Position numbers and translations under genes: made by a program. The notes under the pieces are model-generated. The model was not told the DNA's origin. It searched no databases and saw only the letters and a program-made list of their open reading frames with translations. Shown here in pieces: positions 1-6,649 of a DNA stretch of 64,000 bases. This stretch comes from Thermoproteota archaeon (lineage in GTDB: Archaea > Thermoproteota > Nitrososphaeria > Nitrososphaerales > Nitrosopumilaceae). The stretch lies in assembly GCA_003352285.1 (NCBI GenBank), contig QQVN01000003.1, forward strand, positions 186,001 through 250,000, in the 5' to 3' direction. Position 1 is the first letter of the stretch. Every line of letters starts with the position of its first letter.

Positions 1-271
1 TTTGTTTTTGATAACATGTCATGCTCTTTACAAGTCCATCTGGATTTTTTGGAGGAAGATCCTGTAATGATCTATTAAGATCCACAAACGCTCTTGCAAT
101 TTTTGCAGTGATTACTCTCTGAACTCTTTCTCCCAAGTTGTAGATTTCAAAAACATATGGATCTGAATCATCAAACAAATCGTGTTTTGTAATGCTTAGA
201 TGTTCTTGTAATTCTTTAGGTTTCTCTGTACCACCATGGGGGATTGATAATAGTACTGGATATTTTTTCAA
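1..271 (-). CDS. N-formylglutamate amidohydrolase family protein (partial, N-terminal part)
   Basis: About 90 N-terminal codons are present; the rest lies beyond the left edge. The translation carries SIPHGG near the start and DLNRS further on, the metal-site signatures of the N-formylglutamate amidohydrolase (HutG-type FGase) family, which releases formate from N-formylglutamate. The only good start is a TTG at 269-271, whose last bases form the TGA stop of the upstream gamma-glutamyltransferase gene (TTGA overlap), so translation is probably coupled. The pairing with GGT suggests glutamate recovery from glutamyl derivatives, but the true substrate cannot be read from the sequence. Confidence 0.8.
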   Translation of the reverse strand, partial: MKKYPVLLSIPHGGTEKPKELQEHLSITKHDLFDDSDPYVFEIYNLGERVQRVITAKIARAFVDLNRSLQDLPPKNPDGLVKSMTCYQKQ

Positions 272-1899
272 TCTACTCCTTCAGCTGTACCGTCTCTTCG
301 TACTTCAGCAACTCCTTGATATCCTGAACTTGTTTGTTTTTTAATTACTGCGTGAATTGCTCCATGATAAAATGAATATCTCTCTTTTTTTGTAATTGTG
401 TAACCAATGTCAGCAAGATAATCCAATAATTCGTCCTCAAATCCTCCGTCCTCAATGCTTACTACTCCTCCAATCGTACAATGAAATCTTGGTCTATCAA
501 TGGCTTCATTCATGGGTAAATTTCCGTCAATTACTCTGGAAAGAAAATGACTAATGGCTGAAAATATTCTTTGACTGCCTGGACTACCTACAACCATCCA
601 TAATTTTCCTCTATGAAAAACCAAGGCAGGAGAAACCGAAGTCCAAGGAATTGCATTGGGTCTGATAAAGTATGGGTGATTTGGATTTGTAAATTCAAAT
701 GCAGACATGTAATTGTTGTAGAGAAATCCTAGTCCATCAGCTGCAGCTTTTGAACCATATGCAAGCTCAATTGATTGCGTAATCCCTACTGCGTTTCCTT
801 CATCATCCATAACTGACAAATGAGTTGTATCATCTCCTCCAAAAAATGGTTCTTCCATGGGAAGAGTAGCATCCATTTTGTTGTGAATAGAATCTGCCAT
901 CTGCTTTGCAAATCCTCGTTCAAGATGTAACTTGTCTTTGATCTGGTGATACGTATGAGGGTTGAAAGGTCGTTGAACTCTATGTAGAAATGCTTTCCTA
1001 AATGTTTCTGCTATAAAATGATATGAAATTGGTTTTGAGCTTCGAAGAAAACTAGAAGGAAGATGATTTAACATCATTAAAACCAACAACAAAGTTCTAC
1101 CCGCCGCAGGAGGTGGAAGCGTAACTACTGATACATGTCTGTATGCTCTACTTATCGGCGTCCTTTCTATTGGTTCAGGAATCCATGCAAGATCTTCAGC
1201 ACGAATCAATCCTTTATTTTTTCTCATGTCTTGATCAATTTTTTTTGCAATCTGACCATGGTAAAATGTTCTATACCCATGAGCTGCTATGTATCGTAAC
1301 GTGTCTGCCAAATCTTCTTGAATGAATTTTTCTCCGATTTCATATGGTACTAGTCCATCTTTGAGAAAATACTTTGCACCTGATTTTGATTTAACTTTTT
1401 TAAAATTCTTCATTTCTCTAACTTGCAAATCATGTTGGAGTTTTGTAATCTTGTAACCCTTTTCTGCAATTCGTATTGCAGGTCTAACGATTTTTGGCCA
1501 TTCTAATCTTCCATATCTCTCATGAAGAAATCCTAAAACTGCAACAGTGCTTGGAACTGTGGTTGCTCGATACCCGATGAGACTTTTACTCTTTTTTTGA
1601 TATTTTAGAGAATTTGCTAAAGATGGTGATCTACTAGAACCATCAATGGCTATGGATCTTCCGCCAATATGTAAAATTGCCATAGACTGACCTCCTAAAC
1701 CTGATGCCTGAGGTTCACATACGCCCAATGCTAGGGCAGTAGCACATGCTGCATCTACTGCATTTCCTCCTTTTCGAAGTATGCTTACTCCGGCCTTTGT
1801 AGCATCTGGAAATGCAGATGCTACCATGCCTTTTTTTGATTCAGAGAATTTCTTTTCAGAATTTGACTTGAAATCTCCTTCGATTTTTTCAAGATCCAT
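268..1899 (-). CDS. ggt: gamma-glutamyltransferase
   Basis: 543 residues, full length for the family. This N-terminal-nucleophile hydrolase transfers or hydrolyses gamma-glutamyl groups of glutathione-like compounds. The conserved TTH near residues 358-360 supplies the threonine that becomes the new N terminus after self-cleavage, and the glycine-rich region around residues 43-70 (RKGGNAVDAA, SGLGG) is typical. The N terminus is hydrophilic with no signal peptide, unlike bacterial periplasmic GGTs, so the enzyme is probably cytoplasmic. The start lies 2 nt after the K+ channel stop, and the stop overlaps the TTG start of the next gene. It therefore sits inside an operon. Confidence 0.92.
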   Translation of the reverse strand: MDLEKIEGDFKSNSEKKFSESKKGMVASAFPDATKAGVSILRKGGNAVDAACATALALGVCEPQASGLGGQSMAILHIGGRSIAIDGSSRSPSLANSLKYQKKSKSLIGYRATTVPSTVAVLGFLHERYGRLEWPKIVRPAIRIAEKGYKITKLQHDLQVREMKNFKKVKSKSGAKYFLKDGLVPYEIGEKFIQEDLADTLRYIAAHGYRTFYHGQIAKKIDQDMRKNKGLIRAEDLAWIPEPIERTPISRAYRHVSVVTLPPPAAGRTLLLVLMMLNHLPSSFLRSSKPISYHFIAETFRKAFLHRVQRPFNPHTYHQIKDKLHLERGFAKQMADSIHNKMDATLPMEEPFFGGDDTTHLSVMDDEGNAVGITQSIELAYGSKAAADGLGFLYNNYMSAFEFTNPNHPYFIRPNAIPWTSVSPALVFHRGKLWMVVGSPGSQRIFSAISHFLSRVIDGNLPMNEAIDRPRFHCTIGGVVSIEDGGFEDELLDYLADIGYTITKKERYSFYHGAIHAVIKKQTSSGYQGVAEVRRDGTAEGVD

Positions 1900-1901
1900 A
1901 A

Positions 1902-2699
1902 TTAATCAATTATCTCCTTACCACAATGGGGACAGTTTTTTGATGCATTTTTCTTTTTTCTCATTTCTTCAGTAAATGCTGATGCCATTATTCCAGTAGG
2001 TATTGCATACACAGCTATTCCTAGAATTGCTACTCCAGCTGCAACTAGCTTACCTGCAGGGGTTACTGGGTATGTATCTCCATAACCAATTGTTGTTAAC
2101 GTTACTACTCCCCACCACATTGAAGTTGGAATACTTGAAAAAGCTTCAGGTTGGGCTTCATGTTCTACATGATACATTAGACTAGATGCAAAAATTAACA
2201 CAATAAATAAAATAAAGAATGCTACTGCCAAATCTCCCATCTTTGATTTTAAAACTTCTCCTAATGTTTGCATGGGTTCTGAGTATCTTGCCAATTTGAA
2301 TAGTCTGAATAATCTCAATAGTCGAATAATTCTGATAAATCTCAAATCTGTAACGATAAATGGCAAAAAGAATGGTAGGATTGCTGCCAAATCGATTAAC
2401 ATCATGGGAGTTAAAGCAAATCTTATTCTTGCAAATTTTTTACCTTCATACTTTGGATTAAGTGGGCATAGTACAATCCTTCCAATATACTCAATTGTAA
2501 AAATAACAATTGAAAATAATTCAAATGTATAAAATAGTGTTGAAAATTGAGAAGCTACTACTTCTTCTGTCTCAACAATTACCATTAACACATTTAATGA
2601 AATTAAAACCACCATGAAAATTTGAAATCCTCGTGAAACGATGTCGTTAGTAGTACCTTCTACAATTTCATAGGATCTTGTAATAGCTTTATTTGTCAT
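1902..2699 (-). CDS. Voltage-gated potassium channel with C-terminal zinc ribbon
   Basis: 265 residues. Six membrane segments are expected: S1-S3 in roughly residues 25-115, an S4 sensor at 119-138 with Arg or Lys at every third position, and a pore loop with the K+ selectivity filter TIGYGD at 203-208 between S5 and S6. This matches archaeal KvAP-type channels. The cytosolic tail ends in a small CPHCGKEI half zinc ribbon, an unusual addition. It lies 3 nt after the CorA-like gene and 2 nt before ggt, so ion transport and glutamyl metabolism share a transcript. Confidence 0.93.
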   Translation of the reverse strand: MTNKAITRSYEIVEGTTNDIVSRGFQIFMVVLISLNVLMVIVETEEVVASQFSTLFYTFELFSIVIFTIEYIGRIVLCPLNPKYEGKKFARIRFALTPMMLIDLAAILPFFLPFIVTDLRFIRIIRLLRLFRLFKLARYSEPMQTLGEVLKSKMGDLAVAFFILFIVLIFASSLMYHVEHEAQPEAFSSIPTSMWWGVVTLTTIGYGDTYPVTPAGKLVAAGVAILGIAVYAIPTGIMASAFTEEMRKKKNASKNCPHCGKEIID

Positions 2700-2702
2700 C
2701 TT

Positions 2703-4349
2703 TTAGACCCACTTTCTACTCTTAAACCATATCATCATTACTACAACTATTATCACCATTACTCCCAGCATGACAAAGTAACTTCCTTCCCACTGTAGCT
2801 CAGGAATGTATGTGAAATTAGTACCATAGATGCCAGCAATGAATGTAATTGGAATGAAAATGCTCGCTATTACCGTTAATGTCTTCATGACCTCATTCAT
2901 TTTGTTGCTCACACTTGAGAGGTAGGTGTCCAGCATTCCGCCAATCATGTCTCTTAGGCCTTCTATGTTGTCCATCACTTGAACGGTATGGTTGTAGACA
3001 TCTCTGAGGTACTTTCTTGTAGACTCATCAATGAGTTGTGAATCCATTCGTTCAAAGCTATCTACGACTTCTCTCATTGGCCAAATGGATTTTCTTAATG
3101 CCACCATCTCTCTTTTTAGAACATGGATGGATTGTAATGTTCTGGGTGTTGGGTTGTCCATCAACTCTTCTTCTAATTTCTCAGTTGCAATGCCAATGCT
3201 TTCTAAGACTACGTAAAAATGATCTATTATGGCATCCGCTAATGCATAAGCAAGATAATCCGTCTGCCTTGCTCTAATAACTCCGATTGATTTTTCTAAC
3301 CTGTCTCTAATGGAATCAAAAGCATCATCTTCTGTTTCTTGAAATGAAAGCACATAATTTTTTCCTATCACTAAACTAATGTCTTCTAAAAATAATCTTC
3401 CTGAATCTTTCAAAATATGAGGTAATTTTAAAATTACAAACAAATGATCATCATAGTTTTCAATCTTCGGTCGTAACTCAGTATTCATAATGTCAGCTCG
3501 TGTTAAAATGTGTAGGTTGTAATATTCTCCTATCTTTTCAATCACATCTGGTTCATGCAGACCAACAACATTTGTCCATGTGATTGTGCTCTTATCTTTT
3601 GAGTTTAGACATTCTTCTACAGTAGCGGGCTCTCTTTTAATGAAAGTCTTTTCATCAAATTCAATTTGCTCAAATGTGACTTTCTCAACATGTTGTTTCC
3701 CAACATGCACCAGTGCCCCTGGATGCAGACCAACAAGGTCTGATGATGTCTTGGTTTCTTTCTGAATGTTTTTTACAATCTTTGCAATATCTGCAATATT
3801 TGTTATCCCTACATCCTTGGTCAACTCTTTAACTTTTCCAGCCTTACCAGCTACTCCTACCACAATAAATCCTGCCACAATTGAAAAAATTATACTAAGG
3901 GTTAATGGCGTAAAGTCTCCAATACTTGCAGCTTCGTATATTGCAAGGACATCTGTTGTTGATCCTGGAGGAACAAAAACTCCTATAGCCAAATCCAGTA
4001 GGAAGAACAAAAATGAAATTGATGCTCCTACTATTATTGCTGTAATGACTGTGATCCTTGGTGGAATATCAATGTCTTTCTCACCTTTGTATGGCGAAAT
4101 GAATTTCTTGTATCGTACAATTAGTAGTGCAATTGCTGTAATTACTATTGTTGAGATAATCCACCATATGATGAATACCGCCCCCTGTTCGCTTTCGTAC
4201 TGCTCTATTCCTGAAACTAAATCTTGAATATTTCCTGTTAAAGGTAGAGAAAAAATTGATGTTGCAATACCGACAATTATTTGGTAAACAAAAGCAAAAG
4301 TGAATCCAACAGCTAGTCTGTTGACGATTATGCCGATGTTATTTTTCAA
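2703..4349 (-). CDS. CorA-like divalent cation transporter with extra N-terminal membrane domain
   Basis: 548 residues, against about 320-370 for usual CorA. About four hydrophobic segments (near residues 11-33, 56-78, 98-126 and 147-170) precede a typical CorA cytosolic domain (about 180-480) and the two C-terminal CorA helices. The pore signature is YGTNF where CorA/MRS2 proteins have YGMNF, so the central Met is Thr. Family members carry Mg2+, Co2+ or other divalent ions; the GMN change makes selectivity uncertain. The start is TTG with a TATA-like element 26-32 nt upstream. First gene of the run to the K+ channel, ggt and FGase. Confidence 0.88.
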   Translation of the reverse strand: MKNNIGIIVNRLAVGFTFAFVYQIIVGIATSIFSLPLTGNIQDLVSGIEQYESEQGAVFIIWWIISTIVITAIALLIVRYKKFISPYKGEKDIDIPPRITVITAIIVGASISFLFFLLDLAIGVFVPPGSTTDVLAIYEAASIGDFTPLTLSIIFSIVAGFIVVGVAGKAGKVKELTKDVGITNIADIAKIVKNIQKETKTSSDLVGLHPGALVHVGKQHVEKVTFEQIEFDEKTFIKREPATVEECLNSKDKSTITWTNVVGLHEPDVIEKIGEYYNLHILTRADIMNTELRPKIENYDDHLFVILKLPHILKDSGRLFLEDISLVIGKNYVLSFQETEDDAFDSIRDRLEKSIGVIRARQTDYLAYALADAIIDHFYVVLESIGIATEKLEEELMDNPTPRTLQSIHVLKREMVALRKSIWPMREVVDSFERMDSQLIDESTRKYLRDVYNHTVQVMDNIEGLRDMIGGMLDTYLSSVSNKMNEVMKTLTVIASIFIPITFIAGIYGTNFTYIPELQWEGSYFVMLGVMVIIVVVMMIWFKSRKWV

Positions 4350-4441: not shown

Positions 4442-6649
4442 TTATTCTGTCTTAGAACATCTATAGATAACAGATGCTAGAAGCGCTGATCTTTCAACAA
4501 TGCTATCATGAACAATAAACTCATTTGGTGAACGATACTTGTGACCGATTGGACCAAAACCATCTAATGCTGCAAGCTCTGATGGAACATTGCTAATATC
4601 AGAAGAAACTATCTGCGCATGAGGTTTTATTTTGATTTCTAAAAGATCTGCAATCTCTTTTACAAGTTCATAAAATTTTGTGTCAGCTTCCTCCTCCTCG
4701 ACAGGAGCCCTGCTGTGTATTTTATTGATCTCCACATCAATCTTTGCCATTCCAGCTTCACGTTTTTTCATAACATTTCTGATTTTTTTATCAAGTTCGT
4801 CTCCCAGTTTTTTTGTTTTGTAACTGGATACTAGCGATAATGTCGCAAAGTCTGGTGTGTGTCCATGTGACCCCTTTGAATCTACTGCTGTTGTTCTAAT
4901 TCGAAAATCTTTTTCACTCTTTGATATCTTTTCAATTGCAAGCACTTTCTTACTTAGAACAGGAATAATCCCGTGAAGGTCAATACTGTTTTTTCCAGGT
5001 GATGAAGCAAATCTAACTTGATAGTCGCTTCTACCATGGCATGTAGTGATGATTCCACCATCGATACTAGCTGATTTTAATCCAACTACATATCGGGATG
5101 ACTTTGAATATTCCTCGACAATTGTCTTACTATGCCTTCCACCTAAACTATCATCTGTAGTTAGTAAAATCCCACATTTTATTTTCTTGAGTCTCTTTGC
5201 AAATCTTAGGGCTTGTAATGCTCCCAACATGACTACTAGGCCTCCTTTACTTTCTGCAATACCTGAACCATAAATTCTATCATCATCTTCTCTATAATGC
5301 ACCAAGTCATGAGGGCCATAATGGGTATCTAGATGTGAAACAATCAGAACATCATTTTCTTTTTCTGTATGGTTGGTAAAGTAATGAAAATCGCCAATAT
5401 CATATTGCTTGTGGATGTTCTCTTCAAATCCCATATGTCTTAATCTGCGAGCAATCATTAATCCTAGTTCATTTACGTTATCGATGTTGTACACATGAGT
5501 ATTGAGGTTAACAAAATCTTCCAAGCTTTCTTTAAGTCCTTGTAAATGTCCTCTAAGATATGTTCTAGTAAGAACCCTGAGTGGTTTTGAAGTATCTGGT
5601 GCTTGTTCTGATTGTGTTATTGGATGACCAAAGTATCTGATTACAGCTACATCTAAAATTCTATTGACTAGTGATTCATATGTATATCCTGCAGTCTTTG
5701 CTGCATGAAAAAATGAACCCCCCATACCTAAGCTTGCCATTGAGTTTAATTCTAAAATGTAAAAATTCTCATCTTTATCCATTCTAATATCTACACGAGT
5801 GTAATCATTTAATCCCAAAGTGTAAAATGCATCTTTGCACAATTTTCGTAGCTCTTCAGCTTTTTCATCGGACAATGGAGCTGGACAAATTTTATCGATT
5901 CCTCCTTTCTTTACCTTGTCATCTTTTGTTTGAATTTTGTTTGGATCTCCTTCTAAATTAATTTCAACAATAGGTAATGTTTCTATTGTAGGGCCATTTC
6001 CAAGTAGTCCTACTGCAAACTCTCTACCGGGAATGAATTGTTCTACAAGTATATCTTGAGTGAATTTTTCAATTTGTTTTCGTACTGCTTCTCGAAGGTC
6101 TGGCCAATTATCAACAACTTCCATCCCCATAGAAGTTGATTCTAATTTTGGTTTTACAATTACTGGAAAAATCATATCATCGAATTTATCATCCGGTGTT
6201 CGAAATACCCAAAAACCTGGAGTTGGGATTTTATTTTTTTGTAGTACGATTTTTGTCATGACTTTGTCTTGGACAATTGCATGTCCTTCTGGGCCTGAAC
6301 CGATGTAAGGGATTCCCATCATCTCCATCATTGCAGGAACATGCGTGTACCTGTTTTGACCCTGAACTCCATATGCCATGTTAAAGACCATTCCAGGTTT
6401 TTCACCTGCAACTACTTTTGGCATGAATTCTTTTAATTCGTCAATGACATGAATGTCCCCTTCAATCACTTTGACATTATGTCCTCCTTTCTCTAGTGCT
6501 CTGGCAACTCTTTCAACTGCCTTTTTACTATAGTGCTCTTTAGTAGGCATTCCAAAAACATTGATCACATCATTTGGATCGATTTTATTTTCATTATAGA
6601 TTAGAGCCACTTTCAATTGAATCCCAAAAGAACTGGGGTTTCTTTGCAT
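4442..6649 (-). CDS. ATP-grasp ligase (D-Ala-D-Ala ligase-like) fused to M20-family peptidase/deacylase
   Basis: 735 residues, two enzymes in one chain. Residues 12-340 are ATP-grasp of the D-alanine-D-alanine ligase type: GVQGQNR (94-100), DKVMTK (128-133), VEQFIPGRE (202-210), TRVDIRMD (284-291) and ELNSMASLG (300-308) where Ddl has E-x-N-T-x-P-G. Residues about 385-733 resemble M20 metallopeptidases: HLD (439-441), GSGIAESKGG (461-470), a lid-type GSHGHTP (593-599) and RSPNE (706-710). Several M20 metal positions differ: the bridging Asp is E466, the usual Glu-Glu is D499-D500, and the last His ligand position appears to be R706, with H703 nearby. Archaea lack peptidoglycan, so a cell-wall role is unlikely. 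Formation and cleavage of a small peptide or amide is the best guess. Confidence 0.85.
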   Translation of the reverse strand: MQRNPSSFGIQLKVALIYNENKIDPNDVINVFGMPTKEHYSKKAVERVARALEKGGHNVKVIEGDIHVIDELKEFMPKVVAGEKPGMVFNMAYGVQGQNRYTHVPAMMEMMGIPYIGSGPEGHAIVQDKVMTKIVLQKNKIPTPGFWVFRTPDDKFDDMIFPVIVKPKLESTSMGMEVVDNWPDLREAVRKQIEKFTQDILVEQFIPGREFAVGLLGNGPTIETLPIVEINLEGDPNKIQTKDDKVKKGGIDKICPAPLSDEKAEELRKLCKDAFYTLGLNDYTRVDIRMDKDENFYILELNSMASLGMGGSFFHAAKTAGYTYESLVNRILDVAVIRYFGHPITQSEQAPDTSKPLRVLTRTYLRGHLQGLKESLEDFVNLNTHVYNIDNVNELGLMIARRLRHMGFEENIHKQYDIGDFHYFTNHTEKENDVLIVSHLDTHYGPHDLVHYREDDDRIYGSGIAESKGGLVVMLGALQALRFAKRLKKIKCGILLTTDDSLGGRHSKTIVEEYSKSSRYVVGLKSASIDGGIITTCHGRSDYQVRFASSPGKNSIDLHGIIPVLSKKVLAIEKISKSEKDFRIRTTAVDSKGSHGHTPDFATLSLVSSYKTKKLGDELDKKIRNVMKKREAGMAKIDVEINKIHSRAPVEEEEADTKFYELVKEIADLLEIKIKPHAQIVSSDISNVPSELAALDGFGPIGHKYRSPNEFIVHDSIVERSALLASVIYRCSKTE

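Follow-up and report, generated by a model that had tools for sequence, protein, structure and literature searches.

Some pathways combine a ligase of the ATP-grasp type and a hydrolase of M20 fold; examples are LysX and LysK of the LysW carrier pathway, and carnosine synthase and carnosinase. In these systems the two partners are separate, active proteins, whereas the gene described here, in a 64,000-nucleotide stretch of a Nitrosopumilaceae contig (QQVN01000003.1; hereafter the window), unites the two folds in one chain in which the M20 metal site is lost. Its N-terminal half shares with the Ddl/Van ligases (PF07478) the fold and the ATP and Mg2+ residues, and the same acyl-phosphate ligase chemistry is expected of it. 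Its C-terminal half shares with the M20 enzymes, here represented by carboxypeptidase G2 (CPG2; PF01546; 1cg2), the two-domain fold and the HxD and KGG motifs. A literature search returned nothing relevant on a fused ATP-grasp and M20 protein.

Both halves are encoded by a single uninterrupted open reading frame at positions 4442-6649; it lies on the minus strand, the plus strand of this interval being full of stops. As listed, the frame opens at an ATG at 6649 and specifies 735 aa, the length given in the preliminary description of this DNA. The first residue shared with the homologous fusions is residue 12, a TTG codon in the window copy, and translation probably begins at this TTG, at 6616 (coding sequence 4442..6616, minus strand), giving 724 aa; the single frame of that description is thus retained and its length revised, and residue numbers below follow its 735-residue frame. 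Pfam matches cover both halves, with Dala_Dala_lig_C at residues 157-332 (E=6e-32) and Peptidase_M20 at residues 436-729 (E=4.6e-12; 46.7 bits against a gathering score of 24.6). In an AlphaFold2 model of the full chain (mean pLDDT 85.7, pTM 0.54), the N-terminal half (residues 12-342; 5624..6616, minus strand) fits Ddl structures (DdlB 1iow, 8evz) with a target TM of about 0.84 and 27% identity, and the C-terminal half (residues 374-735; 4445..5530, minus strand) fits CPG2 with a Foldseek target TM of about 0.73. The pTM of only 0.54 means that the model does not fix how the two halves sit against each other, nor any channel or docking between them. The structure prediction and superposition proposed as a check on the earlier claim therefore agree with it that a ligase and an M20 fold are joined in one chain.

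In a sample of 400 genomes of the class, the fusion is present, complete or in pieces, in about 48, and every one of these belongs to the Nitrosopumilaceae. We take this family name from two relatives that carry names: Nitrosopumilus sp. b1, at 98% identity, and a Nitrosarchaeum MAG, at 74%. A sample of 300 phylum genomes contained no fusion beyond the family; the restriction covers this phylum sample, a plasmid collection and one pattern-based contig scan, the last of which yielded just a pair of close archaeal relatives and a single biotin-carboxylase-like match. The homologues form two sequence groups, about 73% and about 55% identical to the window protein. Over 163 pairwise comparisons the median dN/dS is 0.05 for the N-terminal half and 0.083 for the C-terminal half, low values that indicate strong purifying selection on each half. 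Conservation in 48 genomes together with this selection argues against an assembly join, and we regard the fusion as real with practical certainty; it is a genuine joining of a ligase fold and a hydrolase fold, as unusual as the preliminary description held it to be. In one genome (G176), a fusion copy is interrupted by a stop codon (L029), with an intact second copy beside it.

Judged by its residues, the N-terminal half is a putative Ddl-fold ATP-grasp ligase and not a D-Ala-D-Ala ligase. The catalytic residues of ATP-grasp enzymes (two Lys, Arg, Asp and ExN) are all present: the ATP/Mg2+ residues K133, K166, E170, D287, E300 and N302 are invariant in the fusion family, and Arg285 is found in a DYTRVD motif. 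The NCBIfam Ddl cut-offs are missed (149.1 against 245.65 bits for TIGR01205; 165.4 against 243 bits for PRK01372). Alignment with Yersinia Ddl, combined with residue counts over the fusion family, places the residues that we take to bind D-Ala (Y216, S281 and L282 in DdlB numbering) at V/K/L/M246, G311 and S312; the D-Ala-binding residues are not conserved as such. Further differences from the Ddl/Van ligases are the missing conservation of the product-loop G276, the clade-specific motifs DVIN..FG, EHY and RYFG, and the archaeal host. The substrate-binding residues and the missed cut-offs lead us to reject a D-Ala-D-Ala ligase, and for this reason the contrast previously drawn with the absence of peptidoglycan in archaea is uninformative.

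The register of the C-terminal half was fixed by alignment to CPG2 and five canonical M20 proteins. For CPG2, we take D141 to be the bridging ligand, E175 the general base, and E176, E200 and H385 zinc ligands, with H112 a further metal ligand. H112 is the only one of the metal ligands retained, as His439 (5333..5335, minus strand, as are all codons that follow). The bridging Asp is replaced by Glu466 (5252..5254), the general base and the adjoining zinc ligand by Asp500-Ser501 (5147..5152), E200 by Lys525 (5075..5077) and H385 by Arg706 (4532..4534), so that four of the five ligand positions have changed. E466, D500 and K525 are invariant in 40 family sequences; S501 and R706 are each present in 39 of the 40, the exception at R706 being a Lys. 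Asp441 and Lys468 are retained, the lid-domain His motif of M20 enzymes is absent, and the whole domain, unlike CPG2, is fused behind a ligase. The E466 and R706 substitutions reported earlier hold in this register; the proposed D499-D500 for the Glu pair was one residue off, Asp499 being the conserved Asp that precedes the pair, and K525, S501 and the loss of the lid His had been missed. A standard M20 enzyme in some other alignment register, which would have overturned the earlier claim, is excluded by CPG2 and the five canonical sequences.

Of the five ligand positions four have changed, two of these to basic residues, and a shorter Asp stands in for the general base. Metallo-hydrolysis is therefore unlikely, and on this comparison the C-terminal half is very probably not a zinc hydrolase. 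The window genome has two other M20 genes, both scoring higher than the fusion, so that the cell need not rely on the fusion for M20 activity. Purifying selection on the C-terminal half (the median dN/dS of 0.083) indicates a functional non-canonical domain and not decay. The protein is thus a clear example of a pseudo-metallohydrolase in a fusion, in which Lys and Arg have taken the places of two metal ligands.

In the window, the fusion heads an operon of five genes, all on the minus strand. It is followed by a CorA-family divalent-cation transporter (2703..4349), a voltage-gated-type ion channel (Ion_trans; 1902..2699), a gamma-glutamyltransferase (GGT)-fold Ntn hydrolase (268..1899) and an N-formylglutamate-amidohydrolase-like protein (FGase; PF05013), whose 5' part lies at 1..271 and which continues outside the window (L053:9499-10272). 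The last two are the core partners, the order in most loci examined being fusion-(CorC)-CorA-channel-GGT-FGase or fusion-GGT-FGase. Of the 48 fusion genomes, 45 have a GGT of the partner type, which at the threshold used occurs in no fusion-negative genome; the FGase occurs in 45 of the 400 class genomes, namely 44 of the 48 fusion genomes and one other. Fisher tests over the 400 genomes give p of about 1e-56 (GGT) and 1e-52 (FGase) for association with the fusion, values that ignore shared ancestry. The three fusion genomes lacking the GGT (G077, G190 and G219) are assemblies of about 100-190 contigs, for which fragmentation is a possible cause, and some extra fusion copies lack GGT and FGase neighbours. 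We conclude with high confidence that fusion, GGT and FGase constitute a co-inherited three-gene module.

The partner GGT keeps the nucleophile Thr that follows the autoprocessing site (T358, corresponding to E. coli T391), which is invariant in 18 sequences. The gamma-glutamyl-binding residues R114, Q430 and D433 of the E. coli enzyme are replaced by S, Y and A/C/S in all 18 archaeal partner GGTs, which disfavours canonical gamma-glutamyl chemistry and makes a gamma-glutamyl compound an unlikely substrate. The FGase scores 165.3 bits to PF05013 against a gathering score of 28.9, and its DCHS and EMNR motifs are conserved in 14 sequences; no paper was found in the literature on an ATP-grasp together with an N-formylglutamate amidohydrolase. 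A distant lysine-2,3-aminomutase-like archaeal gene was considered as a pathway member and rejected, as it is equally present in fusion-negative genomes. At one locus, a fusion gene and a GGT gene are separated by three genes in a row for short hexapeptide-repeat (left-handed beta-helix) proteins (L056:11274-12533).

The better reading of the C-terminal half is a putative conserved binding pocket rather than a zinc hydrolase. Of the 8 former catalytic columns 6 are invariant, an excess over the 40/362 elsewhere (p=3e-5), and by homology E466, D500, S501, K525 and R706 would cluster beside His439. The ligand replacements in the CPG2 register are in line with the earlier suggestion of a regulatory half with altered metal ligands, and for the pseudo-M20 domain to have a ligand-binding or regulatory role we see about an even chance. 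The best-placed alternative, though rather unlikely, is that the half binds no ligand and has a purely structural or dimerising function, as a scaffold for the GGT, the FGase or the ligase. Dimerisation by way of the lid domain is common among M20 enzymes, and conservation outside the pocket would look similar under a purely structural or dimerisation role. Protein-protein contacts are also the way in which many metallopeptidase pseudoenzymes work, according to a review (PMC11266112). Yet a pure scaffold would not require the invariant residues to gather, as they do, at the former active site.

We consider it improbable that the M20 half has kept hydrolase activity through a modified metal site (with, for example, one metal bound by His439, E466 and D500) and acts as the proofreading or release module that the preliminary description envisaged. 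The M20 fold is intact, His439, Asp441 and Lys468 are retained, and E466 and D500 are still acidic; but the zinc ligands corresponding to E176, E200 and H385 have become Ser, Lys and Arg, which puts two basic chains in the metal site, the lid His motif is lost, and the operon supplies two other candidate bond-breaking enzymes. Slightly more doubtful still is the conversion of the former zinc site to a new metal-free catalytic site, such as Ser501/Lys525/Asp500. The invariance of D500 and K525, the near-invariance of S501 and the purifying selection on the C-terminal half would all suit such a site, but the G007 homologue (L036:5670-7886) has Phe at the S501 position and keeps the whole fusion-GGT-FGase operon, implying that the Ser is not essential as a nucleophile. 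The chance of an assembly or sequencing join, or of a decaying pseudogene, is negligible: nothing about the window copy favours it, the internal stop in one homologue notwithstanding, and dozens of independently assembled genomes, some of them single-contig, carry the identical architecture with both halves under strong purifying selection.

Relatives of the ligase half occur in rhizobia. Stand-alone ATP-grasps on rhizobial plasmids are 39-46% identical to the N-terminal half of the fusion; in the plasmid collection only such stand-alone relatives were found, and no locus covered 80% of the fusion query. The search for split homologues proposed earlier thus yielded the ligase half without an M20 half. 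The rhizobial ATP-grasps form the sister clade of the fusion ligases relative to other archaeal ATP-grasps (support 1.0). Plasmid pBb323S2b of Bradyrhizobium barranii carries an operon (L073:4282-9047) encoding a lysine 2,3-aminomutase, an atypical GGT, a 287-aa membrane protein and the ATP-grasp; many further rhizobial plasmids have related stand-alone ATP-grasps. This ATP-grasp shows 45.6% identity to the ligase half of the window protein and has the same motifs; the GGT shows 41.6% identity to the window GGT, against about 32% for other plasmid GGTs, and features H, Y and T at the positions of R114, Q430 and D433, with pocket motifs as in the window GGT. The closest relatives found of the ligase half and of its partner GGT therefore lie together in the Bradyrhizobium operon. 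Compared with the archaeal module, this operon has a stand-alone ligase, no pseudo-M20 domain and no FGase, and has in addition the lysine 2,3-aminomutase and the membrane protein; pseudo-M20 and FGase are seen only in the archaeal version of the pairing. Since ligase and GGT are paired in both rhizobia and archaea, the link between these two types of protein spans Bacteria and Archaea. By annotation and order, bll8232-bll8230 of strain USDA110 correspond to the first three genes of the B. barranii operon. They appear in a list of genes whose expression differs in the course of soybean nodule development (PMC8632152), in the only paper found in a literature search on the rhizobial cluster.

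Other arrangements of related ligases were observed in the phylum. In other Nitrososphaeria families (L045:4843-9126; L043, L044 and L046), a KamA-like radical SAM protein, a Ddl-fold ATP-grasp and a GNAT protein are encoded together, with a second ATP-grasp on the opposite strand; their content suggests a biosynthetic cluster, whose product might be an acetylated beta-amino-acid peptide. At L049:3586-5571 and L052:3942-5906, a methyltransferase domain is fused ahead of a Ddl-fold ATP-grasp (about 655-660 aa), and several other genomes of the phylum carry related ATP-grasps in similarly long open frames of 650-710 aa.

It is proposed that the ligase half joins a carboxylate, through an acyl phosphate, to an amine in an ATP-dependent reaction, its product probably being an amino-acid-derived small molecule other than D-Ala-D-Ala. 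The M20 half would no longer hydrolyse; the pocket that appears to replace the zinc site next to His439 may be a binding site for substrate, product or a related acyl-amino acid, through which this ligand is docked to the ligase or the ligase is regulated. Cleavage or transfer would then take place in trans, by the GGT-fold N-terminal-nucleophile hydrolase/transferase and the FGase-fold amidohydrolase, in a pathway order that we infer. The CorA and channel genes hint faintly at a context of ion or osmotic homeostasis. Taken as a whole, a Ddl-fold amide- or peptide-bond ligase carrying a C-terminal metal-free pseudo-M20 domain, with cleavage left to separate co-inherited enzymes, is a reasonably probable account.

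The module of ligase-pseudohydrolase, GGT-fold and FGase-fold proteins marks an uncharacterised small-molecule pathway in abundant ammonia-oxidising archaea, and the likely annotation names of its members (Ddl, M20 peptidase and gamma-glutamyltransferase) are probably misleading. It also links these archaea across domains to a rhizobial operon in which three of four genes, judged from their USDA110 counterparts, have expression differences recorded during soybean nodule development (PMC8632152). Much more tentatively, ammonia-oxidising archaea and rhizobial symbiosis plasmids may have in common an undescribed pathway where a non-peptidoglycan amide is made by a ligase of Ddl fold; in the archaea, a pseudo-M20 domain might control this ligase, or even process it further, the zinc centre of that domain having given way to a conserved pocket of Lys, Arg, Asp and Glu that may support new chemistry without a metal.
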